DNA from: Georgenia subflava
GTDB lineage: Bacteria; Actinomycetota; Actinomycetes; Actinomycetales; Actinomycetaceae
Assembly (NCBI RefSeq): GCF_009193155.1
Contig: NZ_VUKD01000002.1
Coordinates: 620,001 to 684,000, forward strand
DNA length: 64,000 bases
Direction of reading: 5' to 3'
Part shown: piece after piece, positions 2,751 through 62,892 of the stretch
Position numbering within the stretch: position 1 is the stretch's first letter
How the letters are laid out: each line of letters starts with the position of its first letter
Notes under the pieces: model-generated
Seen by the model: the letters and a program-made list of their open reading frames with translations, nothing else
What the model was told of the DNA's origin: nothing
Databases searched by the model: none
Translations under genes and position numbers: made by a program

Positions 2751-2780
2751 AGAGGCCGTCCCCGCGCGGGGACGGCCTCT
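2751..2780 (+). terminator. Perfect 13-bp hairpin terminator
   Basis: A perfect inverted repeat (AGAGGCCGTCCCC, loop GCGC, then its complement) begins 17 bases after the stop of the small membrane protein. There is no T-run, as is usual in high-GC Actinobacteria. Its right arm is also the first unit of the tandem repeat that follows. Confidence 0.75.
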
Positions 2781-2911
2781 GCCGTGTGCGGGGTCCGCCT
2801 CCGCCGTGGGCGGGAGGGCCTCCGCCGTGTGCGGGGTCGGCCTCGGCCGTGTGCTGGGTCGGCACTCTTTTCGTGTGCGTCCTCTGCCGTGTGCGGGGAC
2901 GGCCTCGGCGG
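2768..2911. repeat. Degenerate 22-bp tandem repeat array
   Basis: About seven units of roughly 22 bp, with core GGCCTCNGCCGTGTGC. The first unit is the right arm of the upstream hairpin, and the array runs almost to the stop codon of pncB. Units differ by point changes and small indels. No reading frame of interest crosses it. Confidence 0.8.
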
Positions 2912-2936
2912 TTTCCGGTGGACTGCGGGTCGACGT

Positions 2937-4298
2937 TCAGATGCGGGGGAAGTCGTCGTCAGCCTCGATGTCGATGTGCCTGGTGGGGATCCCCGGCTCG
3001 CCCTCGCTCAGGCGCCACGCGGCGTAGGGCAGCTCGGCGCGCGAGGCGAGGTGCCGCTCGGCCGCAGCGGTCAGCGCGTCCGGTCCCCGGTGCTCCTCGA
3101 CCGGCACCCCGTCGCGCACCAGCGGGAGCTGGAGCGGACGGGCACCTTGTCGCTCGACCTCCGCACGGCCCGCATCGTGGGTCCCGCACGCCACCACCAG
3201 CTCCTCGCTGGCGCGTCCGCCGGCGTCCAGCACCCGCCCCGCCACCTTGAGCCCGCCCACCGACATCTTCGAGGCCGACGCCTTCGCCACCTCCTGCATC
3301 CGGCCGTCGGCGCCCTCGCGCGACACCAGCTTGTAGACGAGCTCCGCCGTCGGGTGCCCCGATCCGGTCACCAGCTTCGTCCCCACGCCGTAGGAGTCCA
3401 CCGGTGCCGCGTTGAGAGCGGCGATGGCGTACTCGTCCAGGTCCGAGGTGACGGTGATCCGCGTCGTCGTCGCGCCGAGCGCGTCCAGCTGCTCACGGAC
3501 CGTGAACGCCTGCGCGACGAGGTCGCCGGAGTCGAGCCGCACCGCGCCGAGCTCGCCGCCGGCCGCCCGTGCGGCGGCGACCGCGCGCTCCACGCCCCGG
3601 GTCACGTCGTAGGTGTCGACCAGCAGGGTGGTGCCGGGGCCGAGGGCGGCGACCTGCGCGGCGAACGCGGACTCCTCGTCGTCGTGCAGCAGGGTGAAGG
3701 AGTGGGCCGCGGTGCCGATCGCGCGGATGCCGTAGGAACGGCCGGCCTCGAGGACCGAGGTGCCCACGAAGCCGCCGACGACGGCCGCGCGCGCCGCGGC
3801 GACGGCGGCCTGCTCGTGGGTGCGCCGGGCGCCCATCTCCAGGCACGGCCGGCCGTGGGCCGCCGTCGTCATGCGGGAGGCGGCCGCGGCGACCGCGCAG
3901 TCGTGGTTGAGGATCGACAGGACGACCGTCTCCAGGACGACGGCGTCGGCGAAGGTGCCCTCGACGGTGAGGATGGGGGAGCCGGGGAAGAAGCACTCGC
4001 CCTCGCCGTAGCCGCTGATCGAGCCGCGGAAGCGGTACTCGCGCAGCAGGTCGAGGGTCTCGTCGCCCACCACGCCGGCGCTCGAGAGGTAGTCGATCTC
4101 GTCGCTGCCGAAGCGGAAGCGCTCCACCGCGTCGATCACGCGGGCGATCCCGGCCACGACGCCGTAGCGCCGGCCGGCGGGGAGCCGCCGGCCGAAGACC
4201 TCGAAGACGCTGCGCCGCTGGGCGGTGCCCGAGCGCAGCGAGGCCTCGATCATGGTCAGCTCGTACATGTCGGTGAGCAGTGCCGTGGTGGTCCGCAT
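2937..4298 (-). CDS. pncB: Nicotinate phosphoribosyltransferase
   Basis: A 453-residue enzyme of NAD salvage that joins nicotinate to PRPP, with ATP hydrolysis, to give nicotinate mononucleotide. Family marks include [11 protein letters not shown] at the N-terminus, the EMGARRTHE segment, VDTYDV, and RLDSGDL in the phosphate/PRPP-binding region. The start is set at the ATG at 4298, because TAGCGT lies exactly six bases upstream and would make the mRNA leaderless there; a GTG two codons earlier is possible. It diverges from clpS, the same arrangement as Rv1330c/Rv1331 in Mycobacterium tuberculosis. Full length and intact. Confidence 0.95.
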
Positions 4299-4310
4299 GG
4301 CCACACGCTA
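4299..4310 (-). promoter_or_regulatory. -10 element for leaderless pncB
   Basis: Reading the minus strand, TAGCGT (4310 to 4305) is followed by six bases and the ATG at 4298. No SD sequence is present. Confidence 0.5.
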
Positions 4311-4365
4311 GTGCGCGCGCGATGGCGCGCCATCTCCGCCGGCGCGGGCGCCGGTTCGCACCTCG

Positions 4366-4378
4366 TAGGGTGGAGGAC
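4366..4378 (+). promoter_or_regulatory. -10 element for leaderless clpS
   Basis: TAGGGT at 4366-4371 is followed by seven bases and GTG at 4379. The GGAGGA in the spacer looks like an SD for a GTG at 4388, but it would lie upstream of the predicted transcription start. For that reason 4379 was chosen. Confidence 0.5.
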
Positions 4379-4687
4379 GTGAGCAGCGTGCGACTCGCGT
4401 CCGCCCCCGCGGAGCAGGAGTCACGGTCCGAGGCCCCCGAGGCCGCCGTCGAGCGTCCCTGGCGCACGATCGTCTGGGACGACCCGGTCAACCTCATGAG
4501 CTACGTGACGTACGTCTTCCAGACCTACTTCGGCTACGACGAGGCGACGGCGACCCGGCTCATGATGCAGGTGCACACCAGGGGTCGGGCCGTGGTGTCC
4601 TCGGGCCACCGCGAGCAGATGGAGGTCGACGTGCAGGCCATGCACTCCTACGGGTTGTGGGCGACCCTCGAGCAGGAGGGCGAGTAG
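4379..4687 (+). CDS. clpS: ATP-dependent Clp protease adaptor ClpS
   Basis: A 102-residue adaptor that hands N-end-rule substrates to the ClpA/ClpC-ClpP protease. The ClpS core is clear: [18 protein letters not shown], a helix with MMQVHTRG, then [22 protein letters not shown]. The first 20 residues form the flexible extension that works in the Clp pore. The start is GTG 4379 (leaderless) or GTG 4388. The DUF2017 gene begins at the base after the stop, so the two are coupled. The pair is conserved in Actinobacteria (Rv1331-Rv1332). Confidence 0.95.
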
Positions 4688-5374
4688 GTGCACGCCTTCG
4701 TCCCGGTGCGCGGCGGCTTCGCCGCGAGGCTCGAGCAGGCCGAGCGCACGGTGCTCTCCCGGCTGGTGGCCGACACCGCCGAGCTGCTCGGTACCCGGCT
4801 GACCGACGCGGGGTCGGGAGCCGGCGCGGCGGAGGGCGGCCCCGACCTGCCCGAGGTCCCGGGCCCGGCCGACGGCCCGCAGAACGGCGACGACGCCGTG
4901 CTCGCCGCGCTCGACTTCGAGCCGGCCGCCGACGCGGTCCCGGACGCACCCGCCGACCCGGCACTGGCGCGGTTGCTGCCGCCCATGAGCCACGACGACC
5001 CCAAGCTCTCGGCCGAGCTGCGGGCGCTGACCGAGTCCTCGCTCCGTGCCGGGAAGGTGAGCCGGCTCGAGACCGTGTGGCGCGAGCTGCGCGTACCGGC
5101 CGGGGCGCAGGGCGCCGTCGTGGTCCGTGCCGGCCAGGAAGGCGCGTGGCTCGCCGCGCTGACGGACGTGCGCCTGGTCCTCGCCGCCCGGCTGGGCATC
5201 GAGGACGAGGCCGACGCCGAGGAGGTCTACGCGCGCTCCCGGCCGGGCCGCGACCGGGACGCGGACGAGGACCGCGACGAGGTCGACGACGCGCTCGCCA
5301 CCATGTACGCCGCCCTGACGTGGTGGCAGGAGTCACTCCTCGAGGCCATGTTGCGCAAGCGGCGCGGCCGTTAG
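4688..5374 (+). CDS. DUF2017 family protein
   Basis: A 228-residue protein with the actinobacterial DUF2017 layout: an N-terminal [10 protein letters not shown] segment, a variable acidic middle (about residues 50-95), and a C-terminal half with [13 protein letters not shown] and a final helix ending in [17 protein letters not shown]. It starts with GTG directly after the clpS stop, so it is probably translated with clpS. Its constant link to clpS suggests a part in regulated proteolysis, but no activity is known. Length is normal for the family. Confidence 0.85.
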
Positions 5375-5385
5375 GCTCGACGGCT

Positions 5386-6210
5386 GTGGACGACGCACCT
5401 ATCGGCATCTTCGACTCGGGCGTGGGCGGGCTCACCGTGGCACGTGCGGTGATCGACCAGCTGCCCGGCGAGTCGGTCCTCTACCTCGGCGACACGGCCA
5501 ACACCCCGTACGGGCCGAAGCCCATCGCGCAGGTGCGCGCGCTCGCCCTGGAGGTCATGGACCGCCTCGTCACCTCGGGCGTCAAGCTCCTGGTCATCGC
5601 CTGCAACTCGGCCTCGGCGGCGGTCCTGCGCGACGCGCGCGAGCGCTACGCCATCGACGCCGGGGTGCCCGTGGTCGAGGTGATCCAGCCGGCCGTGCGC
5701 CGCGCCGTCGCCGCCACCCGGTCCGGCCGGGTCGGCGTCATCGGCACCCGCGCAACCATCGAGTCCGAGGCCTACCGGGACGCGTTCGCGGCAGCCCCGC
5801 ACCTCGAGCTCACGATGGCGGCGGCCCCACGGTTCGTCGAGCTCGTCGAGCGCGGCGTGACCTCCGGCCCCGAGGTGCTCGACGCCGCCGAGGAGTACCT
5901 CGCCCCCGTGCGGGAGGCCGACGTCGACACCCTCGTCCTGGGCTGCACGCACTACCCGCTGCTCACGGGGCCGATCTCCTACGTCATGGGCGAGCAGGTC
6001 ACCCTCGTCTCCTCCGCCGAGGAGACCGCCAAGGACGTCTACCGCACCCTGGTGGCGCACGATCTCCTCCGCGGCCCTGACGCCGCCCCACCGGAGCACC
6101 GCTTCCTGGCCACCGGCGACCCCGACTCGTTCGCCCGGCTGGCTCGCCGCTTCCTCGGCCCCGAGGTCACCGACGTCCACGCTGCCGACGAGCTGGCGGG
6201 AGCCCGATGA
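5386..6210 (+). CDS. murI: Glutamate racemase
   Basis: A 274-residue, cofactor-independent racemase that makes D-glutamate for peptidoglycan. The two catalytic cysteines are visible: Cys73 in ACNSAS and Cys187 in GCTHYP. Asp10-Ser11 (FDSGVGGL) and the PYG motif bind substrate. The GTG at 5386 was chosen because [11 protein letters not shown] must sit at the extreme N-terminus; TAGGCT eight bases upstream could provide its own promoter, overlapping the stop of the previous gene. The stop overlaps the next ATG by four bases (ATGA). Position between DUF2017 and the MBL gene is conserved in Mycobacterium. Confidence 0.95.
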
Positions 6211-7007
6211 GGCTCACCGTCGTGGGCTGCTCCGGCTCGATGTCCGGTCCGGCCTCCCCGGCCTCGTGCTACCTCGTGCAGGCCGACGGCGTCGACCCCG
6301 GCGGCCGCCGGCGGACGTACTCGGTGCTGCTCGACCTCGGTCCGGGGGCGATGGGCGCGCTGCTGAACCACGTGGACCCGGCGGCGCTCGACCTCGTGGC
6401 CATCTCGCACCTGCACGCCGACCACATGGTCGACCTCATCGGCATGCAGGTCTACCGGCGGTGGCACCCCGACGGCGGGCTCGCTCCCCTGCCGGTGCTG
6501 GCGCCGTCGGGCGCGCTCGCCCGGGTGCGCGGTGTCGGCGGCGACGACGAGGCAGAGGACTACGCCGGCGAGTTCACCTTCTCCGAGCACGTGCCGGGGA
6601 CCGCCGTGCAGGTGGGTCCGCTGCGCATCGAGTCCTTCCCCGTCAACCACCCGGTCCCCGCCTACGGCATCCGGGTCAGCGGGCCGAGCTCGCGGCCCGG
6701 TGGCCCGGCCGAGGTCAGCCTGGCGTACACCGGCGACACCGACGCCTGCGACGGTGTCGTCGCGCTCGCCTCGGGCGTGGACCTGCTGCTGAGCGAGGCC
6801 GCCTTCCAGGAGGGCCGCGACACCGTGCGCGGGGTGCACCTGACCGGCCGGCGCGCCGGGGAGGTGGCCGCGTCCGGCGGGGTGCGTCGTCTCGTCCTCA
6901 CCCACCTCCAGCCGTGGACCGACCCCGAGGTCGTGCGCGCGGAGGCGCAGGGCGCGTACCGCGGGCCGGTGGACATCGCGGCCGCCGGCGCCGTCTGGAC
7001 GCTCTGA
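6207..7007 (+). CDS. MBL-fold hydrolase, Rv1339-like cyclic-nucleotide phosphodiesterase family
   Basis: A 266-residue metallo-beta-lactamase-fold protein. The metal site reads SHLHADH, giving His68, His70, Asp72 and His73. Further conserved points are [14 protein letters not shown] at the N-terminus, [11 protein letters not shown], and YTGDTDAC. Its closest recognisable relative is Rv1339, an atypical class II phosphodiesterase, which also follows murI and precedes rph. The relationship rests on these motifs and on synteny; the substrate here is inference, and an RNase Z-like role is an alternative. It is translationally coupled to murI. Confidence 0.82.
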
Positions 7008-7144
7008 CCGGACGCGCACCCGCGGGTTGGCGGTACCTGTCCGCCTCGCGCCCGCGCGCGCCTCGACGGTCCTGCTCGCGACCCTGCTCGCGACGCCCGT
7101 CGACCAGAACGTGGTCCGGATGTCTCACCTACCGGCGGCGTGGG

Positions 7145-7157
7145 TAGCCTGCCGTCC
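7145..7157 (+). promoter_or_regulatory. -10 element for leaderless ppc
   Basis: TAGCCT at 7145-7150 is followed by seven bases and ATG 7158, with no SD sequence. It lies in the 150-base gap after the MBL gene, so ppc has its own promoter. Confidence 0.5.
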
Positions 7158-9857
<2,700 letters not shown>

Positions 9858-10987: not shown

Positions 10988-11649
10988 CGGCGAGACCCGT
11001 GACGCCCGTGCCCGTGACCCCGCCGCCCGGGGCCCGGCTGGTCCTGGCGACCCACAACGTCCACAAGGTCCGCGAGCTGCGAGCCATCCTCAGCCCGTTC
11101 CTGCCGGGCCTCGAGCCGGCCGCGGTGGTCGGTGCCGGTGATCTGGGCGCTGACGAGCCCGTGGAGGACGGTGTCACCTTCGCGGAGAACGCGCTGATCA
11201 AGGCCCGGGCGATGGTGGCCGCGACCGGCCTGCCCGCCGTCGCCGACGACTCCGGGCTCTGCGTCGACGTGCTCGGTGGGGCGCCCGGAGTCTTCTCGGC
11301 CCGCTGGGCCGGCCGGCACGGGGACGACCGGGCGAATCTCGAGCTGCTGCTCGCCCAGCTCGCCGACGTGCCCGCACGGCACCGCGGCGCCCACTTCGCG
11401 TGCGCGGCGGCGCTGGTGACGCCGGCGGGCCTCGAGGTCGTGGAGGAGGGCACCATGCAGGGCGTCCTGCTCACGGCTCCGCGCGGGACGGGTGGCTTCG
11501 GCTACGACCCGATCCTGCAGCCGGTCGGGGAGTCCCGCTCGAGCGCGGAGCTGAGCCCGGCCGAGAAGAACGCCATCAGCCACCGGGGCAAGGCCTTCGC
11601 GGCACTCGTCCCGCACGTCGTCGCCACCCTCGCCCGAGCTCCGAGGTAG
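10984..11649 (+). CDS. rdgB: XTP/dITP diphosphatase (RdgB/HAM1 family)
   Basis: A 221-residue pyrophosphatase that removes XTP, ITP and dITP from the nucleotide pool. It has [15 protein letters not shown] at the N-terminus (nucleotide binding), [21 protein letters not shown] (metal-binding acidic residues) and [10 protein letters not shown]. The GTG at 10984 overlaps the rph stop and gives a 20-residue Pro-rich lead-in; later GTG codons (for example 10999) are possible starts. The last codons and the TAG stop form the first unit of a tandem repeat that fills the gap to DUF3054. Confidence 0.93.
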
Positions 11650-11819
11650 CGTCGTCGGTCGAGCTCGGGGGACAGCGCCGTCGGCCGGGCTCAGAGGTAG
11701 CGTCCCGCGCCGGGGCGAGCTCAGAGGTAGGGGCCGCGGCCAGGCCGGGCTCACAGGTAGGGGCCGCGGCCGGGCCGGGCTCACAGGTAGGGGCCGCGGC
11801 CGGGCTCAGAGGTAGCGCG
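11636..11819. repeat. 25-31-bp tandem repeats between rdgB and DUF3054
   Basis: About seven units with core GCTCAGAGGTAG followed by GGGGCCGCGGCC or GCGTC. The first unit contains the rdgB stop codon (TAG 11647-11649). The last contains the DUF3054 stop on the other strand (11806-11808). The whole space between the two convergent genes is repeat, and part of each unit is the palindrome GGCCGCGGCC. Confidence 0.85.
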
Positions 11820-12210
11820 CCTGCTGCTCGTGCCGGCGCTCCTTGATCTCGGGCACCACGCGCCAGCCGATCAGCAGGAGCGCCAGGACGCCGGCCGTGA
11901 CGAAGGGGAAGGCACCGGAGACGCCACCACCGGTGATCCCGCGGAGGACCAGACCCACGACGGTCGTCACCGCCCAGACGAGCACCCCGCTCGGCCAGAT
12001 GATCAGCGGCAGGGAGCGCACCCCGGGCAGCGCCCAGGCGATGCCGAGCCCGAGCACGAACGGCCACACCGTCTCGAAGAAGCCGGACGGCGGCGTGCCG
12101 TGGGTGAGCATCCCGACGACTGTGAACACCAGGACGCAGGCCAGGTCGAGGGCGAACCACTTCAGCGGGTGGCGGGAGCCGGGGACTGCCGGCTCGGGAG
12201 GGGTGTCCAT
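11806..12210 (-). CDS. DUF3054 family membrane protein
   Basis: A 134-residue integral membrane protein with four predicted helices (about residues 18-38, 50-66, 73-92 and 98-120), matching actinobacterial DUF3054. The pattern ALDLACVLVFTVVGMLTHG, then GFFETVWPFVLGLGIAW, is typical. The C-terminus is charged (PEIKERRHEQQARYL). Its ATG overlaps the stop of the upstream DUF4916 gene by one base (TGATG), so the two form an operon. Function is unknown. Confidence 0.85.
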   Translation of the reverse strand: MDTPPEPAVPGSRHPLKWFALDLACVLVFTVVGMLTHGTPPSGFFETVWPFVLGLGIAWALPGVRSLPLIIWPSGVLVWAVTTVVGLVLRGITGGGVSGAFPFVTAGVLALLLIGWRVVPEIKERRHEQQARYL

Positions 12211-12746: not shown

Positions 12747-13066
12747 GTGTTCTTTGTATCGTGCCCGGGCCGTCGAAGCGAGACGGCCTCGCCCGCAGCG
12801 GTGTTCCGACCGGCCCGCGGACGCTGCGTCGTCCGGGCGAGCGACGGCGTCCCGTCCTCCCACTGACTCGCCAGTTGGCGCGGTGCTGCCCGGCGGACGG
12901 CCGAACGGGCCGGCGCGGAGAGGTCCGGCGTCGCGGACGGCCGACCGGGCCGGCGGGGAGAGGTCCGCCGTCGCGGACGGCCGACCTGGCCGGCGGGGAG
13001 GGGTCCGCCGTCGCGGACGGCCGACCTGGCCGGCGGGGAAGGCTCCGCCGTCGGGAACCGGATCGG
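12747..13066. repeat. Gene-free gap with four 40-bp tandem repeats
   Basis: The array covers about 12893-13054. Units start at 12901, 12941, 12981 and 13021, exactly 40 bp apart, with core CCGGCGGGGAGAGGTCCGCC. Each unit can form a small hairpin (GTCCGC-CGTC-GCGGAC). The array lies just 3' of tRNA-Leu on the minus strand. The left part (12747-12890) carries a weak -10 (TACAAA, 12758 to 12753) for DUF4916 and nothing else I recognise. Confidence 0.85.
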
Positions 13067-13148
13067 TGCGCGAGAGGGGACTCGAACCCCTACGCCCGAA
13101 GGCACCAGGACCTAAACCTGGCGCGGCTGCCAATTACGCCACTCGCGC
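13067..13148 (-). tRNA. tRNA-Leu(TAG)
   Basis: A class II tRNA with an 82-base body. Acceptor stem GCGCGAG/CTCGCGC; anticodon stem CCAGG/CCTGG with loop TTTAGGT, giving anticodon TAG; long variable arm around TGCCTTCGGGCG; T arm with GTTCGAGTC. The discriminator base is A. The genome does not encode a full CCA (CCG follows). Confidence 0.95.
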
Positions 13149-24820: not shown

Positions 24821-25020
24821 GATGACTCCTTCGTCCACGGCGCTACCGCCGCCGGCTTGTGCGCGTCCGCCGGACCGGGCGGTCCGCCGTTCGCGTGGGA
24901 GCGCTCTCACGAACAGGTGGAGCAGAGCGTGGGAGCGCTCTCACGGGATGCGGATATGGTGGCGCGCCGGGACGGGGGCGTCAAGGGCCGGTGATGCCAC
25001 CCGAGGTCACGGTTCGATCT

Positions 25021-25110
25021 CGGCATCGGCATCGGCATCGGCATCGGCATCGGCATCGGCATCGGCATCGGCGGCATCGGCGTCGGCGTCAGGGCCGGCG
25101 TCGGCGTCGG
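25021..25110. repeat. Hexanucleotide (CGGCAT) microsatellite
   Basis: Eight perfect CGGCAT units (25021-25068) are followed by degenerate CGG/CGT units to about 25110. The repeat is in no recognised gene. Read in frame with the downstream ATP-grasp gene it would encode Ser-Ala repeats, but a promoter lies between the two. Confidence 0.85.
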
Positions 25111-25246
25111 GGGCGCGTGGGCAGTGCAGGAGGTTCGTGGGCGACGAACTCCCCGCCGGCCACGGTCAGCAGGGCGGAAGGTCGATGGCGCCCCGGGCGG
25201 GACGTGCGGGCGTGGGCGCTGGGCACGAGTCGTGGGGCCACCACGG

Positions 25247-25259
25247 TAGGTTGACCCCT
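25247..25259 (+). promoter_or_regulatory. -10 element for the leaderless ATP-grasp gene
   Basis: TAGGTT at 25247-25252 is followed by seven bases and GTG 25260, with no SD. Confidence 0.5.
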
Positions 25260-26174
25260 GTGTCGAAGCCGATCGTGACCCTGGCGACCTGCGCGGCGCT
25301 GCCGCAGCTCGCCGAGGATGATGCCCCCCTGCCCGACGCGCTGGCCGCCCGTGGGATCGAGCCACGCATCGCCGTCTGGGACGACCCGGACGTCGACTGG
25401 TCCGCCGCCGGTGTGGTGGTGATGCGGTCCGTCAACGACTACGCCACCCGCCGTGACGAGTTCGTCCGCTGGGCCGAGTCCGTGCCCCGGCTGGTCAACC
25501 ACGCCGACGTGGTCCGGTGGAACACCGACAAGCACTACATGATCGAGCTCGAGAAGCGCGGCATGCCCACGATCCCCACGGTGTGGCTCGAGCCGGAGCG
25601 CAACCTGTCCAAGCACCAGGTGCACACCCGGTTCCCGGCGAGCGGCGACTTCGTGGTCAAGCCCGCCGTGTCGTCCGGCTCGCACGACACCGGGCGCTAC
25701 ACGGCCGTGGACGCGAAGTCCCGTCAGGAGGCGATCGGTCACGCCATGGACCTCTTGGCCGAGGGGCGCTCCGTCATGGTCCAGCGCTACCTCGAGTCGG
25801 TGGATCAGCGCGGCGAGACCGCGCTGATCTTCATGAACGGGCTCGTCTCGCACGCCGTCGAGAAGGACGCGATGCTCCACGGGCCGTTCCGCCGGCACTC
25901 GGACGCGCCCGCGGAGGTTGCCCACGCCCGGGAGGCCACCGACGCCGAGTGGCGGCTCGGGGAGGAGGCCCGCGTCGCGATCCACTCCCTCATCAAGGAG
26001 CGCATGGGTCGCGACGAGCAGCTCACCTACTGCCGCATCGACGTCGTCGAGGGCGAGGACGGCGGCGTGCGCGTCATGGAGGTCTCCCTCGTGGACTCCT
26101 CGCTGTACCTCTCGACCACCCCGGGAGCGGTGGACAACTTCGCCGACGCGATCGCGGTGCGCGCCTTCTGGTGA
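25260..26174 (+). CDS. ATP-grasp domain ligase
   Basis: A 304-residue ATP-grasp protein, of the group that joins a carboxylate to an amine or thiol through an acyl phosphate. Visible marks: KHYMIELEKRGMPTIPTVWL, DFVVKPAVSSGSHDTGRY (ATP-lysine and glycine loop), MVQRYLESVDQRGETALIFMNG, and the C-terminal metal-binding YCRIDVVEGEDGGVRVMEVS. It resembles RimK/glutathione-synthetase-like proteins but lacks neighbours that would show the substrate. The GTG at 25260 fits the leaderless promoter. A strong terminator follows, so it is a single-gene transcript. Confidence 0.85.
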   Translation: MSKPIVTLATCAALPQLAEDDAPLPDALAARGIEPRIAVWDDPDVDWSAAGVVVMRSVNDYATRRDEFVRWAESVPRLVNHADVVRWNTDKHYMIELEKRGMPTIPTVWLEPERNLSKHQVHTRFPASGDFVVKPAVSSGSHDTGRYTAVDAKSRQEAIGHAMDLLAEGRSVMVQRYLESVDQRGETALIFMNGLVSHAVEKDAMLHGPFRRHSDAPAEVAHAREATDAEWRLGEEARVAIHSLIKERMGRDEQLTYCRIDVVEGEDGGVRVMEVSLVDSSLYLSTTPGAVDNFADAIAVRAFW

Positions 26175-33186: not shown

Positions 33187-33319
33187 GGCTTTCCCCGGGC
33201 CAACGGGCCCGGGTCGGATGCCGGCACACACCCTTGGGAGTGATGCCGCGCCGCGGAGCGATGCCGCACCGCGCGACCGCGGCCGCCGCGATCGTTGCCG
33301 ACGGCTGCGGTCCGGTGGA

Positions 33320-34511: not shown

Positions 34512-36947
34512 ATGAGCGACGGCGCACCCGAGTCCTCCGGCCCGCCCGCCCTGGGCAGGGCGCCGGCCCGACGCGAGGCCGTCGTGCAGGGCCCGACCTA
34601 CCGATTCACGGTCCTCACCTCCCGGCTCGTGCGGATGGAGCACAGCGAGTCCGGGGTCTTCGTCGACGCGCCGAGCCAGCTCGCCGTCGACCGGCAGTTC
34701 GACGTGCCGGCGTTCGAGGTGACGGAGTCGGAGGCCTCGCTGGAGATCCGCACCGAGCACCTGCGACTGTCCTACGACAAGAAGGCGTTCACGCCCTCGG
34801 GCCTGACCGTGACGATGCTCGGACGCGTCCAGTCCAGCCACCGCTCCACCTGGCACTACGGCAACCTCGACCCCGGGCTGCCCGGACGGCCGGGCAACCT
34901 CGGCGGCACGGCCCGGACCCTGGACGACGTCGACGGCCGGACCGACCTGGGAACAGGGCTGCTCTCGGGCAACGGCCACGCGACCGTCGACGACTCCGGC
35001 TCCCTGCTGCTCACCGACGACGGCTGGCTCGTCCCGCGCCCCGACGGCGCCGGGCAGGACGTGTACTTCTTCGGGTACGGCCGCGACTACCCGGCCGCGC
35101 TGCGCGACTACTTCCGCCTCGCCGGTCCGACGCCGCTGCTGCCACGCTTCACGCTCGGCAACTGGTGGAGCCGCTACCACCCGTACTCGGACGCGGAGTA
35201 CCTGGCACTGATGGACCGCTTCGCCGCCGAGGGGATCCCGTTCTCGGTCGCGGTGCTGGACGTGGACTGGCACGTGGTCGACGTCGACCCCAGGTACGGC
35301 ACCGGGTGGACCGGCTACACCTGGAACCGGGACCTGTTCGCCGACCCGGCCGCCTTCCTCGACGAGCTGCACGACCGCGGCCTGCGGGTGACCCTCAACG
35401 TCCACCCGGCCGACGGCGTGCGCGGCTACGAGGACGCCTACGCCGACGTCGCCCGTGACCTCGGCATCGACCCGGACTCGCACCAGACGATCCCCTTCGA
35501 CATCACCTCCCGAGCCTTCGCGGAGAGCTATCTCGCCCGCCTGCACCACCCGCACGAGGAGCTCGGGGTGGACTTCTGGTGGCTGGACTGGCAGTCCGGC
35601 AGCTACTCGCGCATCCCCGGGCTGGACCCGCTGTGGCTGCTCAACCACCTCCACTTCCGTGACTCCGCCCGCGGCGGACGGCGGCCCCTGACCTTCTCCC
35701 GGTACGCGGGCCACGGCTCCCACCGCTACCCGGTGGGTTTCTCCGGCGACACCGTCGTCAGCTGGGACTCCCTGCGGTTCCAGCCGGAGTTCACCGCGAC
35801 CGCCGCCAACGTCGGCTACTTCTGGTGGAGCCACGACGTCGGCGGTCACCTGGGCGGGACCAAGGACGACGAGCTCGCCACCCGGTGGGTCCAGCTCGGC
35901 GCACTGTCGCCGATCAACCGGCTGCACTCCACGGCCAGCACCTTCAACGCCAAGGAGCCGTGGCGCTACTCCGACCGGGCCGCCGCCGTCATGAGCCGCT
36001 TCCTGCGGCTGCGCCACCGCCTGGTGCCGTACCTGTACACGGTGAACTGGCTCGCCCACACCGACGGCGCCCCGCCGGTGCGGCCGATGTACCACGACCA
36101 CCCCCACGCCCCCGAGGCGTACGAGGTGCCGAACCAGTTCCTCCTCGGACCATCGCTCCTCGTGGCCCCGATCACCGAGCCGGCCGAGCGGCGCAGCCAC
36201 CAGGCCCGCGTGGACGCGTGGCTGCCGCCCGGGACCTGGTACGACCTGCTCAGCTCGCGCCGCTACGACGGCGGGTCGACCGGACGCCGGCTCGCCCTGC
36301 ACCGGTCGCTGGAGGCCGTGCCTGTGCTCGCCCGTGCCGGCTCGATCCTGCCGCTCGCGGCCGACCCGATGGCCGACGTCGCCGCGAACCCTGCGGCACT
36401 CGTCCTGCGCGTGCACGCCGGCGCGGACGGCGAGCTCACCCTCCTCGAGGACGACGGCGCGGGGGAGGTGACTGCCGAGAACCGGCACGAGACCCCGGTG
36501 CGGTGGCAGGAGTCGGGCGTGCGGGCCGAGCTCACGATCGCTCTACCCCGCGGGTCCGGGGTCCTGACCCGACGGACGCTGACCGTCGAGCTCGTCGGGA
36601 TCGCCGCCGCGCGGGTGCGCGTGGGCACGGGCGAGGACCTCGCCGAGCTCGCCGCGCCAGCAGTGACGCCGTCGCCGTCGGTGCTCACGATCGAGCTCGG
36701 CGAGGTCGACCTCGCCGGCGGGTACGCGGTGCGGCTCAGCGACGTCCGGCCCGCCGAGCCCGAGATCCGCAGCGAGATCTTCCGGCTGCTCGACGAGGCC
36801 GAGATCGACTACCGCGACAAGGAGATGGCCCACCGCGCCAGCCAGGAGCTCGACGACTCCGCGCTCGCCGGCTCGCTGTACGCCCTCGATCTGCCCGACG
36901 CGCTCTACGGCGCCCTGCTGGAGGTGCTCACCGCCGCGCGTCCGTGA
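34512..36947 (+). CDS. GH31 family alpha-glycosidase
   Basis: An 811-residue family 31 glycosidase (alpha-glucosidase, alpha-xylosidase or transglycosylase). The nucleophile region reads FWWLDWQSG with Asp359, a W-x-D-W form rather than the common WxDMNE. The acid/base is probably Asp413 in FSGDTVVSWDSL. SHDVGGHLGG and NRLHSTAS follow. The last 65 residues form an added helical domain (SEIFRLLDEAEIDYRDKEMAHRA) not needed for catalysis. No signal peptide, so it is intracellular. Substrate is unknown. The stop codon is inside the first unit of the following repeat array. Confidence 0.9.
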   Translation: MSDGAPESSGPPALGRAPARREAVVQGPTYRFTVLTSRLVRMEHSESGVFVDAPSQLAVDRQFDVPAFEVTESEASLEIRTEHLRLSYDKKAFTPSGLTVTMLGRVQSSHRSTWHYGNLDPGLPGRPGNLGGTARTLDDVDGRTDLGTGLLSGNGHATVDDSGSLLLTDDGWLVPRPDGAGQDVYFFGYGRDYPAALRDYFRLAGPTPLLPRFTLGNWWSRYHPYSDAEYLALMDRFAAEGIPFSVAVLDVDWHVVDVDPRYGTGWTGYTWNRDLFADPAAFLDELHDRGLRVTLNVHPADGVRGYEDAYADVARDLGIDPDSHQTIPFDITSRAFAESYLARLHHPHEELGVDFWWLDWQSGSYSRIPGLDPLWLLNHLHFRDSARGGRRPLTFSRYAGHGSHRYPVGFSGDTVVSWDSLRFQPEFTATAANVGYFWWSHDVGGHLGGTKDDELATRWVQLGALSPINRLHSTASTFNAKEPWRYSDRAAAVMSRFLRLRHRLVPYLYTVNWLAHTDGAPPVRPMYHDHPHAPEAYEVPNQFLLGPSLLVAPITEPAERRSHQARVDAWLPPGTWYDLLSSRRYDGGSTGRRLALHRSLEAVPVLARAGSILPLAADPMADVAANPAALVLRVHAGADGELTLLEDDGAGEVTAENRHETPVRWQESGVRAELTIALPRGSGVLTRRTLTVELVGIAAARVRVGTGEDLAELAAPAVTPSPSVLTIELGEVDLAGGYAVRLSDVRPAEPEIRSEIFRLLDEAEIDYRDKEMAHRASQELDDSALAGSLYALDLPDALYGALLEVLTAARP

Positions 36948-37068
36948 CGGCCCGGGCGGGACCAGCGCCCGCCGTAGCGCGCCCGTGATGGCCCCGGCCG
37001 GGACCAGCGCAAACCCTTGCGCGCACGTGATGGCCCTGGCCGGGACCAGCGCGCCGCCGAGATGTCTA
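36943..37068. repeat. Three 41-42-bp tandem repeats after the GH31 gene
   Basis: Units start at 36943, 36984 and 37026 and share CGTGATGGCC...GGCCGGGACCAGCGC. The first unit holds the GH31 stop codon (TGA, 36945-36947). The array ends next to the TAGGCT promoter element of the thioesterase gene. Confidence 0.85.
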
Positions 37069-52339: not shown

Positions 52340-52656
52340 GGCGTGCTCCTGTCCCTGATGCTGCCGCCATCATGCCGCCTGGCGCGCCGGCGGCGCGATG
52401 CCGCGCGGCGGAGCCGTGGTTCCGGGTCGGGCGGTGTCCGGTGGGAGCTCTGGTTCTGGCTGGAGCTGTGCCCGGCGGGAGCCTTGGTCCCTGTTGGGGC
52501 TGTGCTCCCTCGGCGCCCCTGTTCTCGAGGGGCCAGCGCCTGGTGGACGTCCTCGATCAGGTGGGACGCCGGGTGCTGCACAGGTAGGCTCGTCGGAGGC
52601 GGGCAGCCGGGGGACCGGACCCGCACACGCCGCTGAGACCTGTGGAGGAATCACCG
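52340..52656. repeat. ptsI-IIB divergent gap with 34-bp tandem repeats
   Basis: Units begin at 52410, 52444, 52478 and 52512, exactly 34 bp apart, with core GGAGCCNTGGTNCTG. Identity between units is moderate. The gap holds the start regions of both divergent genes but no clear promoter. TAGGCT at 52587-52592 could be a -10 for the IIB gene. This array is unlike most others here because it lies at gene starts, not ends. Confidence 0.75.
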
Positions 52657-57079: not shown

Positions 57080-57109
57080 TTGACAGCACTCGGCGCCGCG
57101 CGGTGTCAT
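57080..57109 (+). promoter_or_regulatory. Consensus-like promoter of the IIB-IIA operon
   Basis: TTGACA (57080-57085), 18-base spacer, TGTCAT (57104-57109), leaving a leader of about 100 bases. The two divergent -35 hexamers are 34 bases apart; there is no clear operator palindrome between them. The rest of the 328-base gap (56889-57216) shows no gene or repeat. Confidence 0.55.
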
Positions 57110-57216
57110 CAGGATCACTGGACCGGCCCGGTCTGGCGCGAGCGCGCGAGAGCGCACGGCGGGGAGATCCCCGCCTGGAGGATCACGGACACGACCGTGA
57201 TGACAGGGAGCGGAAC

Positions 57217-57447: not shown

Positions 57448-57902
57448 CCCTGCGGGTCCTCGCACCCGTGGCCGGCACGGTCCTCGCGCTCGAGGACGTG
57501 CCCGACCCGGTCTTCTCCGGGGCGATCGTCGGTCCCGGGATCGCCGTCGACCCCGGCGACGTCGCGTCGGTCGAGGCGCGCTCGCCGGTGGACGGCACGA
57601 TCATGAAGCTCCACCCGCACGCGTTCGTCGTCCTCACGGGCGAGGGTCAGGGCGTGCTCGTCCACCTCGGCCTGGACACCGTCCAGCTCGGCGGCGAGGG
57701 GTTCACGCTCCACGCGGCGGAGAAGGACGCCGTCACGGCCGGCCAACTGCTCGTCACCTGGTCGCCGAAGGACGTCGCCGCCGGTGGCCGCTCCCCGGTG
57801 ACCCCTGTCATCGCCCTCGAGGGCTCCGCGGAGGCCCTGACCACCGTCGTCGCCCCGGGCGACGCCGTGGCGGCCGGCGACGAGCTCTTCTCCTGGGAGT
57901 GA
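57444..57902 (+). CDS. crr: PTS enzyme IIA, glucose type
   Basis: A 152-residue IIA(Glc). The phosphorylated His lies in GVLVHLGLDTVQLGG; SPVDGTIMKLHPHAFV carries the second conserved His. It takes phosphate from HPr and gives it to IIB, and may signal sugar status. GTG 57444 overlaps the IIB stop. Its own stop overlaps the HAD start (GTGA), so three genes are tightly coupled. Confidence 0.93.
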   Translation: MTLRVLAPVAGTVLALEDVPDPVFSGAIVGPGIAVDPGDVASVEARSPVDGTIMKLHPHAFVVLTGEGQGVLVHLGLDTVQLGGEGFTLHAAEKDAVTAGQLLVTWSPKDVAAGGRSPVTPVIALEGSAEALTTVVAPGDAVAAGDELFSWE

Positions 57903-58582
57903 GTGGTCCGGGCGCCCTGACGGCGCGGCTGGACGCCGCGCTGCGGGCGCCCGGCGCTGCGCTGCTCCTGGACCTCGACGGCACGCTCGTCGACTCCGAG
58001 CCCACGCACCGGGCGGCGTTCCAGACCTACTTCGCCCGACGTGGGTGGGACGTCACCGACCAGATGCTCCACGCCTTCGCCGGGCGCCGGGGTGCGGAGG
58101 TCTTCGCCTCCGTGGAGGGGCCGTGGACGGGTGAGGACCCGATGACGCTGGCCCACGAGGTCATCGCCTGCCTCGACGTCGGCCGCTACCCGGCCGCGCC
58201 CGTGCCCGGTGCCGCGGAGTCCGTCGCCGGCTGGCGCGGGGCCGGCGTGCCGGTGGCCGTCGTCACCTCGGCGACCGAGGCCTGGGCGACGGCGGCGCTC
58301 GAGCTGCTCGGCGTCGCGGACCTCGGCGTCGCCCTGGTCACCGCCGAGCTGGTCGAGGTCGGCAAGCCCGACCCCGCCCCGTACCGCCTCGGTGCGGAGG
58401 TGCTCGGCGTCGACGCGGCCGCCTGCGTGGCAGCCGAGGACACGCCCGCCGGTCTCGCCGCGGCCCGCGGTGCCGGTGTCGGGCTGGTGCTCGGGGTGAG
58501 CACCAGCCACGACGACGAGACCCTTCGCAGGGCCGGGGCGCACGCCGTGGTGCCCGACCTCACCGAGCTCGTCCCGCGCTGA
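57899..58582 (+). CDS. HAD-superfamily phosphatase/phosphomutase
   Basis: A 227-residue HAD hydrolase of subfamily I. Motif I LLLDLDGTLVDSEP (nucleophile Asp), motif II VVTSATEAW, motif III GKPDPAPYRL, motif IV AAEDTPAGLAAA. The cap and Glu/Pro pattern resemble beta-phosphoglucomutase and sugar-phosphate phosphatases, so a sugar phosphate made by the PTS is a sensible substrate; this is inference. GTG 57899 overlaps the IIA gene. Confidence 0.88.
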   Translation: MSGPGALTARLDAALRAPGAALLLDLDGTLVDSEPTHRAAFQTYFARRGWDVTDQMLHAFAGRRGAEVFASVEGPWTGEDPMTLAHEVIACLDVGRYPAAPVPGAAESVAGWRGAGVPVAVVTSATEAWATAALELLGVADLGVALVTAELVEVGKPDPAPYRLGAEVLGVDAAACVAAEDTPAGLAAARGAGVGLVLGVSTSHDDETLRRAGAHAVVPDLTELVPR

Positions 58583-59081
58583 CTGGGTCGCCGCCCCGCC
58601 GCGCGGCCGCCCCGCCGCGCGGCCGCCCCGCCGCGCGGCCGCGCTGCCGGTCTGGCCGCGCTGATACAGGCTGGTCGCGGTGACGGGAGGCCGCCCTGAC
58701 GAGCTGGTCGCGCTGAGACGGGCTGGCCGTGTTGCGCCCTTGTCGCCCCCAGCTCTGATTCACGTTTACCCGCAAACTTGACTGCCGATCTGGTCGCTAT
58801 AACGACCACATCAGCAGTCAAATTTGGTGGGTTCGGCCTGAACGGGTCCGAGGCCGGTGGCGGTGGCGGTTGCGGTGGCTTTGGCGCCGTCGGCTGGCTG
58901 GCGACTGCTGGCGGTCGGGGCTCGGGGCCGTGGGCACCCTGTGTGTCGGCGGGCCGGTGACTGCTGCAGTTGGCGCTCAGGTGCGGTGGGCCTCCTGCGC
59001 GTGGGCGACCGGCGACCGGTGGTGGTCGGGGCTCGGGGCGCGGTGGCCTCCTGCGCGTCTGCGGCTGGCGACCGGTGGCGG
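58583..59081. repeat. HAD-pepN convergent gap: repeats and a palindrome
   Basis: No gene is visible in this 499-base gap. From left to right: three perfect 16-bp units GCCGCCCCGCCGCGCG (58590-58637); a looser array of about 20-bp units with CTGGTCGCG (58650-58735); the 54-bp AT-rich palindrome (58773-58826); and four 55-56-bp units starting at 58901, 58957, 59012 and 59068. The last of these runs into pepN and contains its stop codon. Confidence 0.85.
58773..58826. repeat. 54-bp AT-rich near-palindrome
   Basis: The two 27-base halves match at 23 of 27 positions, from CAAACTTGACTGCCGATCTG to its mirror ending in AGTCAAATTTG. Inner core is TGGTCG-CTATAA-CGACCA. About half A+T in a region otherwise near three-quarters G+C. 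It lies about 190 bases after the HAD stop and 255 before the pepN stop. Confidence 0.85.
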
Positions 59082-61661
59082 TCAGGCTCGGGAGCGGTCG
59101 GCCTCCTGGGCGCGCAGGGCGCGGCGCGCGGCGTCGAGGTTCTCCGCGACGAGCCGCCGCAGCGCCGGCGGCGCCGTCGGGTGGTCGTCCAGCCAGGACT
59201 GGGTCAGGGCCACGACGTCGACACCGTGCCGATCGGCGAGCCCGGCGAGCTTGCCCGGGTACAGGCCCGTGACGATGTTCTGCGCCATCTCGTTGGTGCG
59301 CTGCTCCCACACCTGCTCCAGCGCCGCGAAGTAGCGCTCCGCGAACGGTACGAGCAGGGCGCGGTCGTGCACCTGCCCGAAGCCGCCGATGACGTTGGCC
59401 TGGACTGCGTTGGGCAGGGTGTCGGAGTCGACGACGTCGCGCCATGCCTCCGCCTTGTTCTCCGCCGTCGGGACCGCCGCCCGGGCCCGGGCCGCCTGCT
59501 GCTGACCCGTGGCGGTGGCGTCGCGCTCCAGCTCGGCGTCGATCTGACCGGTGCCGGCCCGTCCGCCCGCGACCAGCCCCTGCAGGAGCGTCCACCGCAG
59601 GTCGGTGTCCACGCGCAGCCCGGGCAGCTCCGCGCTTCCGTCGAGGAGTCCGGCGAGGACGTCGAGGTGCTCGTCCGCGACCGCGTGCGCGGCGAGGGCC
59701 CGGACGAGCTGGAGCTGGGTGTCGGAACCGGCGTCGGCGCCTCGGGCGAGCTCGAGTAGCCGCGCGGCGACCGAGTGGCCGACCTCGTCACGGGCCTCGG
59801 GCGCCACGTACGAGCCGAGCGCGGTGGCCACCTGCCGCAGCAGCACCAGGACGACCGAGGAGTCGGACTCGCCTGCGACGGCCCGCAGCGCCAGGTCCAC
59901 GAACTCCCTGGCCGACCACTCCCCGTCCCGGGTCATGTCCCAGGCGGCGGCGAGCACGAGCGCCCGCGGCAGCGAGTCGGTGAAGCCGCCCAGGTGCTCC
60001 ACCGCCGTCGCCAGCGAGGCCTCGTCGAGGCGAACCTTGGCGTAGGCGAGGTCCTCGTCGTTGACGAGCACGAGGTCCGGCTGGCGGCGGCCCACGAGGT
60101 CCGGCACCTCGGTGCGGGCGCCGTCGACGTCGATCTCGACCCGGACCACCCGCTCGAGGCGGGCGGCGGCGCCGTCGCCGACGACGTCGTACCCGCCGAC
60201 CACCAGGCGGTGCGGGCGCAGGGTCGGATGCTCGGCCGGGGCCTCCTGGACGAGCGCGAAGGAGGTGATGGTGCCCGTCTCGTCGGTGGCGACGTCCGGG
60301 CGCAGCAGCGTGACGCCGGCTTCCTCGAGCCACACCTTCGACCAGCTGGTGAGCTCGCGTCCGGAGGTGGCCTCGAGCTCGGTGAGCAGGTCGGACAGCT
60401 CGGTGTTGCCGTAGGCGTGCCGGGCGAAGTACCGACGCACGCCGGCGAGGAAGGCGTCCTTGCCGACCCAGGCGACGAGCTGCTTGAGCACCGAGGCGCC
60501 CTTGGCGTACGTGATGCCGTCGAAGTTGACCTCGACGTCCTCGAGATCGTTGATCGGGGCGACGATCGGGTGGGTGGAGGGGAGCTGGTCCTGGTTGTAC
60601 GCCCAGGACTTCTCCAGCGAGGAGAAGGTGGTCCAGGCGCTGGTCCAGCGGGTGGCCTCGGCGGTGGCCAGGTGGGAGGCGTACTCGGCGAAGGACTCGT
60701 TGAGCCACAGGTCGTTCCACCAGCGCATCGTGACCAGGTCGCCGAACCACATGTGCGCGAGCTCGTGCAGGATCGTCACCGCCCGTCGCTCGACGGTGGC
60801 CTCGGCCACCTTGGAGCGGAAGACGTAGTTCTCCAGGAAGGTCACCGCGCCGGCGTTCTCCATGGCGCCGGCATTGAACTCGGGCACGAAGAGCTGGTCG
60901 TACTTGGTGAACGGGTACGGGCAGTCGAACGCCTCCTCGTAGAAGGCGAAGCCGGCCCGGGTGATGGCCATGATCTCCTCGGCGTCGAGGTGTTCGGCCA
61001 GCGAGGCCCGGCAGTACACGCCGAGGTCGATCGTGCGCCCGTCCGTGGAGGTCAGCTCGCCGGTGACGCGGTGGTACGGGCCCGCCACGATCGCCGTGAG
61101 GTAGGAGGAGATGACCTGGGTGGGGGAGAACCGCCAGGTCGCGACGTCGTCACCGACCGGCTCCGGCTCGGGTGTCGCGGTGTTGGAGACGACGGTCCAG
61201 TGCGCCGGTGCCGTGACCGTGAACGTGAACGCGGCCTTGAGGTCGGGCTGCTCGAAGACGGCGAAGACTCGCCGGGAGTCGGCCACCTCGAACTGGGAGT
61301 ACAGGTAGACCTCGTCGTCGACCGGGTCTACGAACCGGTGCAGCCCCTCGCCGGTGTTCATGTACCGGCAGGTCGCGACGACCTCCAGCACGTTCTCGGC
61401 GGCCAGGCCCTCGACCGCGATGCGCGTGCCGTCGAACGCACCCGGATCCACCTCGTCCCCGTTGAGCACCACCCGCTCCACCGACTCGGCAATGAGGTCG
61501 ACGAAGGTGCTGGCGCCCGGCTCGGCGTCGAACCGGATGGTCGTCGTCGAGCCGAAGGCCTTCGCGCCGCGGGTGAGGTCGAGGACGACGTCGTAGGCCG
61601 AGGTGGTGACTGTCGCGGCCCGCTGCCGGGCCTCGGCGCGGGTGAGGTTCTCTCCGGGCAT
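59082..61661 (-). CDS. pepN: Aminopeptidase N (M1 family)
   Basis: An 859-residue zinc aminopeptidase. The exopeptidase motif is FNAGAMENAG, the zinc site HELAHMWFGD followed 18 residues later by NESFAEY. TRAEARQRAATV at the N-terminus is typical of actinobacterial PepN, as is the long C-terminal helical domain. ATG 61661 is preceded by GGAGCG. It is divergent from the Rv2466c-like gene, just as pepN (Rv2467) and Rv2466c are adjacent in Mycobacterium. Its final codons are repeated three more times, in decayed form, in the downstream gap. Confidence 0.96.
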   Translation of the reverse strand: MPGENLTRAEARQRAATVTTSAYDVVLDLTRGAKAFGSTTTIRFDAEPGASTFVDLIAESVERVVLNGDEVDPGAFDGTRIAVEGLAAENVLEVVATCRYMNTGEGLHRFVDPVDDEVYLYSQFEVADSRRVFAVFEQPDLKAAFTFTVTAPAHWTVVSNTATPEPEPVGDDVATWRFSPTQVISSYLTAIVAGPYHRVTGELTSTDGRTIDLGVYCRASLAEHLDAEEIMAITRAGFAFYEEAFDCPYPFTKYDQLFVPEFNAGAMENAGAVTFLENYVFRSKVAEATVERRAVTILHELAHMWFGDLVTMRWWNDLWLNESFAEYASHLATAEATRWTSAWTTFSSLEKSWAYNQDQLPSTHPIVAPINDLEDVEVNFDGITYAKGASVLKQLVAWVGKDAFLAGVRRYFARHAYGNTELSDLLTELEATSGRELTSWSKVWLEEAGVTLLRPDVATDETGTITSFALVQEAPAEHPTLRPHRLVVGGYDVVGDGAAARLERVVRVEIDVDGARTEVPDLVGRRQPDLVLVNDEDLAYAKVRLDEASLATAVEHLGGFTDSLPRALVLAAAWDMTRDGEWSAREFVDLALRAVAGESDSSVVLVLLRQVATALGSYVAPEARDEVGHSVAARLLELARGADAGSDTQLQLVRALAAHAVADEHLDVLAGLLDGSAELPGLRVDTDLRWTLLQGLVAGGRAGTGQIDAELERDATATGQQQAARARAAVPTAENKAEAWRDVVDSDTLPNAVQANVIGGFGQVHDRALLVPFAERYFAALEQVWEQRTNEMAQNIVTGLYPGKLAGLADRHGVDVVALTQSWLDDHPTAPPALRRLVAENLDAARRALRAQEADRSRA

Positions 61662-62050
61662 TGCGCTCCTTCGGGTGCGGGCGCGGCGGTGGCCGGACCC
61701 GGGCGGGCGGTGCGTCGGTGGCGCACCGGCCCCGATCCTGCCACCGCCCGTAGCAGCGGGCCGAACCAATTCCCACCGGTCCGCGGGGGAGATGACCGAC
61801 GGTGAGCGAGTGGGGACGGGTGAACTGCCGGCCCACCGTGCCGGGCAGTCCCTGCTGGCCAGTCCCTGCCGGCCGGTGCCCTGCCGGCTCCGTTCCGCAG
61901 GCCACGCCGTGGCACCGCGTGCCGCGCCGCGCGCCGCGCCGCGCGCCGCGCAGCGCCGCGCCCGCTGTCCCGTCGCTGCGACGGCACCGTGTGTCCACCA
62001 AGCGGTGGGACGGTTCGCGCGCGACGGCGGACCTGACGCAGGATGAGCCC
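61662..62050. other. Divergent pepN / Rv2466c-like gap
   Basis: No gene is visible. Around 61845-61890 there are three 14-15-bp units of the type CCAGTCCCTGCTGG. Around 61919-61958 there are short CCGCGCCGCGCG repeats. An AT-richer stretch near 61764-61775 may belong to the pepN promoter, but no clear -10/-35 pair was found. Confidence 0.6.
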
Positions 62051-62674
62051 ATGACCGACACGAACACCACCACCCACACCGCCGACTTCTGGTTCGACCC
62101 CATGTGCCCCTGGGCCTGGATGACGTCGCGCTGGATCGGTGAGGTCGAGCAGGTCCGCGACATCGACGTGCGCTGGCACGTGATGAGCCTCTCGGTGCTC
62201 AACGAGGGCCGGGACCTGCCCGAGGACTACGCCGCCCTCATGGACCGTTCCTGGGGTCCGGTGCGCGTGGTCAACGCGGCCCGCGAGCAGCACGGCGCGA
62301 ACGTCGTCAAGCCGCTCTACGACGCACTCGGCACCCGGATCCACCCCGGGGAGCGCGGCGACGACCTCGAGGCCGTCATCAGCGAGGCTCTCGCCGAGGT
62401 GGGGCTGCCGGCCGAGCTGGCCCGCTACGCCGACTCCGACGAGTACGACGAGTCGCTGCGCGCCTCCCACCAGCGCGCCCTCGACCTCGTCGGCGACGAC
62501 GTCGGCACCCCGGTCGTGTCCGTCGACGGCGTGGGCTTCTTCGGGCCGGTGGTCACGCCCGCGCCGAAGGGCGAGGACGCCGGCAAGCTCTGGGACGGGG
62601 CCGTCCTGGTCGCCTCGACCCCGGGCTTCTACGAGCTCAAGCGCAGCCGCACCTCTGGTCCCGTCTTCGACTGA
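62051..62674 (+). CDS. DsbA-family protein, mycothiol-dependent nitroreductase (Rv2466c) type
   Basis: A 207-residue thioredoxin-fold protein very like Rv2466c: [72 protein letters not shown] and a C-terminal ELKRSRT. The active site is Cys19-Pro-Trp-Ala22; the second Cys of the CPWC motif is missing, so it must work as a monothiol, with mycothiol as partner. ATG 62051 has GGAT upstream. Paired with pepN as in Mycobacterium. Its stop codon lies in the first unit of a repeat array. Confidence 0.88.
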
Positions 62675-62892
62675 CGACAGCGGGGTCCTCGACCGGCGAC
62701 GGCGGGGCGCTCGACCGTACCGGCGACGGCCGGGCGCTGGACCGGCGACGGCGGGACCTTCGAGACCGAACGACGGCGGGGCGCTGGACCGGCGACGGTG
62801 GGGCCTTCGACCGGACGACGGCGCGGCTTTCGATCGACCACGGCGGGTCGCTCGACCGGCGACGGCCAGGCCTTCGATCGGCGACGGCGCGG
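62666..62892. repeat. About ten 22-bp tandem repeats after the Rv2466c-like gene
   Basis: Units of 21-27 bp with core TTCGACCGGCGACGGCGGGG. The first unit contains the last two codons and the TGA stop (62672-62674) of the gene. The rest of the 337-base gap to 63011 holds nothing else that I recognise. Confidence 0.85.

Follow-up and report, generated by a model that had tools for sequence, protein, structure and literature searches.

Tandem arrays in the gaps of the window

The window analyzed here is a stretch of 64,000 nt (G000:C4:620001-684000) in a Georgenia assembly of 4.32 Mb, which consists of 11 contigs and has a GC content of 73%. The two top-ranking named matches to its M1 aminopeptidase come from Georgenia, with 84% and 81% identity. 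Genes were called with a purpose-built hexamer-model caller, and arrays were detected with TRF, for which a score of at least 60 was the usual cut-off. The features are listed below; those given without a strand are unstranded.

2750..2781, + strand: perfect 14-bp inverted repeat with a 4-nt loop, a terminator-like hairpin 3' of the 51-aa gene at 2578-2733 (sequence reading)
2766..2906: 22/43-bp array in a convergent gap, beginning at the 3' arm of the 2750-2781 inverted repeat (TRF)
11640..11820: 30-bp array between the convergent genes rdgB and DUF3054 (TRF 11683-11805, extended by eye; Pfam)
12893..13053: 40-bp array of four copies, separated by 11 nt from the tRNA-Leu 3' end (13065-13148, - strand) (TRF)
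25021..25112: 6/24-bp array in a divergent gap (24821-25274) (TRF)
33237..33273: 18-bp array of 2.1 copies in a codirectional gap (TRF score 60)
36936..37059, + strand: 42-bp array of three copies, the first unit containing the 12 nt that end the GH31 gene, TGA included (TRF; Pfam GH31)
52406..52505: 34-bp array of three copies in a divergent gap (52340-52656), with no gene 3' end (TRF)
58590..58729: 16/17-bp array beginning 7 nt 3' of the stop of a HAD-family gene (TRF, Pfam)
58888..59092, - strand: 56-bp array of 3.7 copies, containing the end and stop of an M1 aminopeptidase (pepN-like) gene (TRF, Pfam)
61839..61956: two small arrays (14 bp and 12 bp) in a divergent gap (61662-62050) (TRF)
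62665..62893, + strand: 22/45/67-bp array, which takes in the final codons of the Rv2466c-like gene at 62051-62674 together with its stop (VFD*) (TRF, Pfam)

An earlier, sequence-only reading of this DNA had claimed that its gaps hold tandem arrays, and TRF confirmed this at the places named, finding arrays in 10 of the 35 gaps of at least 60 bp (4 of 21 codirectional, 3 of 7 convergent and 3 of 7 divergent). The same reading had described one array whose first unit is a terminator arm and one that lies directly 3' of a tRNA; both descriptions were correct, for the 2766-2906 array and the 40-bp array, respectively. Its claim that the arrays are anchored at gene 3' ends stands as a tendency and not as a rule, because three of the ten array gaps (24821-25274, 52340-52656 and 61662-62050) lie between divergent genes, where no gene ends. 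Hairpins with a sequence similar to that at 2750-2781 were also found 3' of the orthologue of the 51-aa gene in the relatives G001, G005 and G006, in a comparison that leaves out loci L232, L236 and L237. The same comparison excludes most tRNA-Leu loci (L238, L239, L241, L242, L244 and L245). A plasmid search with the gap of the 2766-2906 array gave no match.

Abundance and position of the arrays

The number of arrays in the window is far above chance expectation. In an own-genome sample that comprised the window and 40 stretches of 20 kb (864 kb in total, coding fraction 0.86), TRF detected 92 arrays with a score of at least 60 in 474 gaps of at least 40 bp, compared with 1.45 on average and at most 4 when these gaps were dinucleotide-shuffled 20 times. 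Arrays make up about 10% of the gap DNA in this sample. The number of gap arrays was 104 in one count and 108 in others, because the gene model was retrained. The repeats had been said to be unrelated across loci, and this was borne out: 100 of 108 gap arrays had no match to another at E ≤ 1e-4, and the remaining eight matched another array in pairs only, so that the largest cluster had two members.

Array density per 10 kb (score at least 60) was 14.4 in convergent, 9.8 in codirectional and 6.5 in divergent gaps, and 1.06 in coding sequence. Occupancy per gap of at least 60 bp depended weakly on class (convergent 22/80, codirectional 53/253, divergent 20/102). Coverage by arrays rose from 0.04 in the final 30 nt of genes to 0.20 at 90-120 bp past the stop; ahead of starts, it was 0.015 within the closest 30 bp and reached 0.15 only at more than 200 bp. 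Of the 107 array edges in the own sample that face a stop, 30 run across it; of the 101 that face a start, 1 does. Distance from starts alone does not explain the gradient among the gap classes, because it remains at 150 bp or more from any start, where coverage was 0.149 in convergent, 0.090 in codirectional and 0.057 in divergent gaps. A larger share of regulatory DNA in divergent gaps, or a real 3' mutational bias, may lie behind this residual gradient. As a separate observation, the top-scoring gap array of the sample (L016:4631-5029, 59 bp x 5.4) lies 15 nt past a stop and has two exact neighbouring copies, and is therefore probably young.

Densities per 10 kb in convergent, codirectional and divergent gaps were 18.1, 4.8 and 2.2 in a sample of the relative G006, and 18.6, 8.0 and 2.9 in neighbourhoods from eight relatives. 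We also analyzed a wider sample of 80 loci, from which nine unplaced or metagenome loci were excluded, leaving 71 named loci in Georgenia and five other Micrococcales groups. In five of these six groups, arrays were most dense in convergent gaps, although the counts are small, and the Microbacteriaceae group yielded a single gap array, which was codirectional. The three densities were 13.9, 9.8 and 7.6 in Cellulomonas-type genera (72-75% GC) and 4.7, 1.3 and 0.5 in Arthrobacter-type genera (60-70% GC); the rates for the Arthrobacter-type and Microbacteriaceae groups are rough, because gene calling was poorer there (coding fraction 0.79 and 0.75). An E. coli K-12 control of only 50 kb contained no arrays.

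Gene ends as founder units

Four arrays of the window had been described as including the last codons or stop of a gene, and we confirmed this for rdgB/DUF3054, GH31, pepN and the Rv2466c-like gene. It had further been proposed that gene ends are copied into the gap. This proposal was upheld in all three window cases that could be tested, in which the copied end is conserved in relatives that lack the array in question. The gene end is ancestral in these three cases, and it is therefore the founder unit. The window and six of the eight relatives have VFD* or IFD* as the end of the Rv2466c-like gene, and the remaining two relatives have IFS*. All eight lack an array at this gene end, and their gaps there are 103-192 bp long, compared with 337 bp in the window. 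The aminopeptidase tail RAQEADR, which is repeated by the window array, is kept in G003, G004 and G005 and is similar in the other five relatives. By eye, the copied end of this pepN-like gene extends further into the gene than the 11 nt given by TRF. The DUF3054 gene end reads, on the + strand, TCAGAGGTAGCGCG in G001 and CTAGAGGTAGCGCG in G006, and no rdgB/DUF3054 array was seen by eye in either genome. In the window, the units at 11640..11820 bear GAGGTAG, which is the DUF3054 3' end; this motif recurs throughout the gap, and the unit is present at both stops, that of rdgB and that of DUF3054. The founder of the GH31 array could not be polarized, because this gene has no orthologue in the eight relatives, two of which showed just weak partial matches.

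The end of rdgB was compared between the window and five of the eight relatives (L195, L196 and L201 were left out). In these five readable relatives, the protein ends in ALTA, in ALG, in LLG (twice) or in a longer unrelated tail. In the window (11600-11650), its end is RAPR*, and array sequence comes next. The neighbouring array may thus have replaced the C-terminus of rdgB in the window, apparently bringing a new stop codon.

Turnover among relatives

The arrays are lineage-specific. Five of the ten array-bearing window gaps have orthologous gaps (in 1, 3, 4, 6 and 8 relatives), and in none of these five comparisons did the orthologous gaps contain the unit of the window gap. Separate arrays are present in G003, G005 and other relatives, in these gaps or in different ones.

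We then compared G001 and G006, which are both single-contig genomes, are about 95% identical (94.7% in one estimate) and match over 206 kb, mostly in collinear order. For this pair, an array had to score at least 50 in TRF and lie no more than 40 nt from the gap, which places a few in the flanking gene. Turnover is quick: one or both genomes contain an array in 41 of 115 orthologous gaps, and 21 of these 41 are one-sided. By class, 7 gaps were one-sided and 5 had arrays in both genomes among 18 convergent gaps, with corresponding counts of 11 and 13 among 76 codirectional gaps and 3 and 2 among 21 divergent gaps. When the gaps were read by eye, the differences were mostly whole arrays; an automatic screen for tandem indels of one unit, with a strict criterion that proved too narrow, retrieved 2 of 96 indels of at least 8 nt. 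In one codirectional gap, G001 repeats the gene end and its TAG (26 nt x 3.8), whereas G006 has the gene end once, and in another gap the two genomes carry unrelated arrays. Gene ends themselves were little changed by arrays. In 15 genes with an array over the stop, a mean of 9.0 of the last 10 residues were identical, compared with 8.8 in 21 genes with an array near the stop and 9.4 in 139 genes without one; 1 of the 15 had a rewritten end.

Indels of at least 8 nt numbered 26 in 1.8 kb of convergent, 60 in 12.9 kb of codirectional and 10 in 3.7 kb of divergent gaps, or 145, 46 and 24 per 10 kb, counts to which the arrays themselves contribute. In array-free gaps, which are a small sample, substitutions amounted to 0.163 in convergent, 0.043 in codirectional and 0.065 in divergent gaps, and small indels also peaked in the convergent class, which here consists of 6 gaps with 331 aligned bases. 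Divergent gaps without arrays thus evolve faster than codirectional ones, and therefore the order of the classes differs from that of the arrays.

Apart from the arrays, palindromes of the form GTTGTTGC...GCAACAAC within longer inverted repeats were observed in gaps at L260 (G006:C1:1150562-1150598) and L259 (G001:C1:2597122-2597158). The exact pattern has a single site in each of G001 and G006 and is absent from G000, and looser palindromes of this type were seen by eye in other G001/G006 gaps.

A proposed origin by short-homology duplication and selection

We propose that the arrays are probably de novo minisatellites that arise by short-homology tandem duplication and are then sorted by selection. 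Homologies of a few bases, which are common in DNA of 73% GC, would allow replication slippage to duplicate a segment of 12-80 bp in tandem, and the array would subsequently grow, drift and disappear. Such duplication would occur across the whole genome. Inside genes, the survivors would be almost exclusively in-frame; beside start codons they would be very rare, because leader and ribosome-binding sequences are constrained; and past stop codons, most of all between convergent genes, the majority would be tolerated. A gene is unharmed when a duplication spans its stop, since the stop is retained in the first copy. Since such duplications are harmless, arrays in short gaps would often copy the gene end or a terminator arm. 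We thus infer that the molecular step is slippage and that the positional gradient results from relaxed constraint.

A reading-frame filter was evident from the periods: among arrays located wholly within coding sequence, 208 of 221 had a period that is a multiple of 3, compared with 96 of 222 gap arrays; for exact two-copy duplications in genes, the figure was 45 of 46. Therefore, duplication also strikes genes, and selection filters its products there. Exact two-copy duplications are also flanked by extra homology: the mean extra flanking match was 7.4 nt in gaps (n = 50, including one outlier of 58) and 4.6 nt in genes (n = 46), where 0.87 is expected by chance. Slippage between short direct repeats would leave such a trace, to which partial copies in older arrays contribute. 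We also observed that, in the gap arrays of the nine Georgenia genomes, periods divisible by 3 are mildly overrepresented (the same 96 of 222), and missed small genes or misplaced starts could be behind it.

Is a transcription-end process needed?

The sequence-only reading had attributed the position of the arrays to a process tied to transcription ends. We therefore compared the inclusion of stops with a neutral founder model, in which the founder unit is placed randomly and a stop-straddling duplication is harmless to the gene, using two start margins. The pooled set covered nine Georgenia genomes (1.96 Mb, 211 arrays); stretch L178, which overlaps the G006 block, was omitted, and the shorter G001/G006 neighbourhoods were replaced by blocks. 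Pooled stop inclusion was 58 of 239, compared with 48.5-53.9 expected (P = 0.034 and 0.225 for the two margins). The pooled set thus agrees roughly with the model, and the own genome taken alone showed a mild excess (30 compared with 21.9-24.3; P = 0.018 and 0.054); in the other Georgenia genomes, inclusion was 28 of 130 with 26.9-29.8 expected (P = 0.434 and 0.725). An earlier null, which allowed an overhang of up to half the array, predicted 24.0 stop crossings (sd 3.6) in the own sample. When the overhang was limited to half a period, 13.6-14.8 were expected in the own sample, giving a strong excess (P printed as 0.000, 1000 simulations). This limit is not favored, however, because several observed overhangs equal a whole period.

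Two further analyses gave negative results. Within 60 nt of stops, there was no association between hairpins and arrays (odds ratio 0.83, p = 0.48), an array being near 27 of 115 stops with a hairpin and 133 of 492 without one. The 195 arrays within genes of at least 600 nt showed no 3' bias, with 17 lying within 100 nt of the stop and 23 within the same distance of the start, where 15.7 were expected. Hairpin-driven slippage as a general cause was therefore ruled out, since stops with a hairpin are not enriched in arrays, and a 3' bias within genes was ruled out by these positions. With stop inclusion roughly neutral as well, the claim of a process tied to transcription ends was not supported, and no such process is needed to account for the arrays. 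A modest mutational bias towards 3' ends may exist in addition.

It nevertheless deserves consideration whether R-loops, positive supercoiling where genes converge, replication-transcription conflict or terminator-hairpin slippage seed the arrays at transcription ends, with selection shaping them later. The class order of coverage that remains at 150 bp or more from starts speaks for this process, as do the mild stop-inclusion excess in the own genome and the two arrays with a terminator-like hairpin at their beginning (the window array 2766-2906 and, in G006, an 8-bp expansion). However, neither the hairpin comparison nor the in-gene arrays support it, arrays occur in 20 of 102 divergent gaps even though these lack a 3' end, large indels overall show a steeper class gradient than arrays, and the other Georgenia genomes are neutral. 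We regard such seeding as unlikely. A related idea, which appears rather doubtful to us, is that, atop selection, the 3' ends of GC-rich actinobacterial genes, especially convergent ones, are hot spots of tandem duplication, which would seed minisatellites from transcription-end DNA and occasionally rewrite a neighbour's C-terminus, as may have happened to rdgB.

Arrays could also be retained for a function, whether as terminators in tandem, as a reserve of stop codons in more than one frame or as regulatory 3' UTRs, and their units do frequently contain stop codons. On the other hand, no unit was common to orthologous gaps in the five of ten array-bearing window gaps compared, half of the array gaps (21 of 41) are one-sided at about 95% identity, hairpins are not enriched, and the majority of gaps are array-free, so that functional retention seems very improbable. 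Insertion of a single mobile or dispersed repeat family at gene ends would agree with the six weaker partial matches that the 40-bp array has elsewhere in the genome. Yet the array-versus-array comparison contradicts it, as the arrays are not homologous to one mobile family (8 of 108 resemble another, and no cluster exceeds two), and the founders are local gene ends wherever testable; this explanation was ruled out with near certainty. The same applies to an assembly artefact, for which no evidence emerged and which we hold to be scarcely conceivable, because arrays of the same type are present in the single-contig genomes G001 and G006, and the units are diverged, not exact copies.

Relation to known repeats

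REP and BIME are dispersed families of palindromic short extragenic repeats, often near gene 3' ends. The Georgenia arrays are likewise short extragenic repeats that often lie near gene 3' ends, but they form no sequence family. MIRUs are one related unit family dispersed over the Mycobacterium tuberculosis genome, a description that does not fit the Georgenia arrays, 100 of 108 of which lack similarity to any other at the above E-value. A closer likeness is to bacterial minisatellites or VNTR, which share with the window arrays head-to-tail units of tens of bp (10-100 bp), locus specificity, rapid turnover and a mostly intergenic location per base. The Georgenia arrays differ from these in filling about a tenth of own-sample gap DNA and in founders that often include a stop or terminator arm. 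VNTR copy number varies between isolates of one species; for the Georgenia arrays, the comparison was between species (closest pair about 95% identical), and it revealed differences in presence and unit.

In our literature search, which did not extend to most subscription journals, we recognized no paper on gene-end-founded arrays. The nearest described case found is the rnc-fpg1 array (ETR-F/VNTR3239) of the Mycobacterium tuberculosis complex, which is lineage-specific and intergenic and starts 40 bp past the rnc stop; the gap is 1-54 bp in the listed mycobacteria without the array (PMC2734929). It resembles the Georgenia arrays in being a lineage-specific intergenic tandem array of an actinobacterium. 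However, it ends at the start codon (PMC2734929), a position rarely used by the Georgenia arrays (1 of 101 edges).

If short-homology duplication with selection is indeed the origin, the intergenic DNA of GC-rich bacteria can renew itself via short duplications, often founded by gene ends; in Georgenia, the arrays turn over within a few percent divergence. Simple geometry would explain why they frequently contain stop codons. Caution is warranted when orthologues are compared, since C-termini and stop positions can be array-derived. Furthermore, the Georgenia arrays offer a comparative system in which mutation bias and selection can be separated.

One other repeat was observed in the window. 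A palindromic element at 58755-58835, between the two arrays of the HAD/aminopeptidase gap, is by eye GC-poorer than its surroundings. Partial copies of 80-91% identity are present at nine other sites of the own genome and at one site each in G003 and G006. Judging from these copies, the element belongs to a small dispersed REP- or MITE-like family that is distinct from the arrays.
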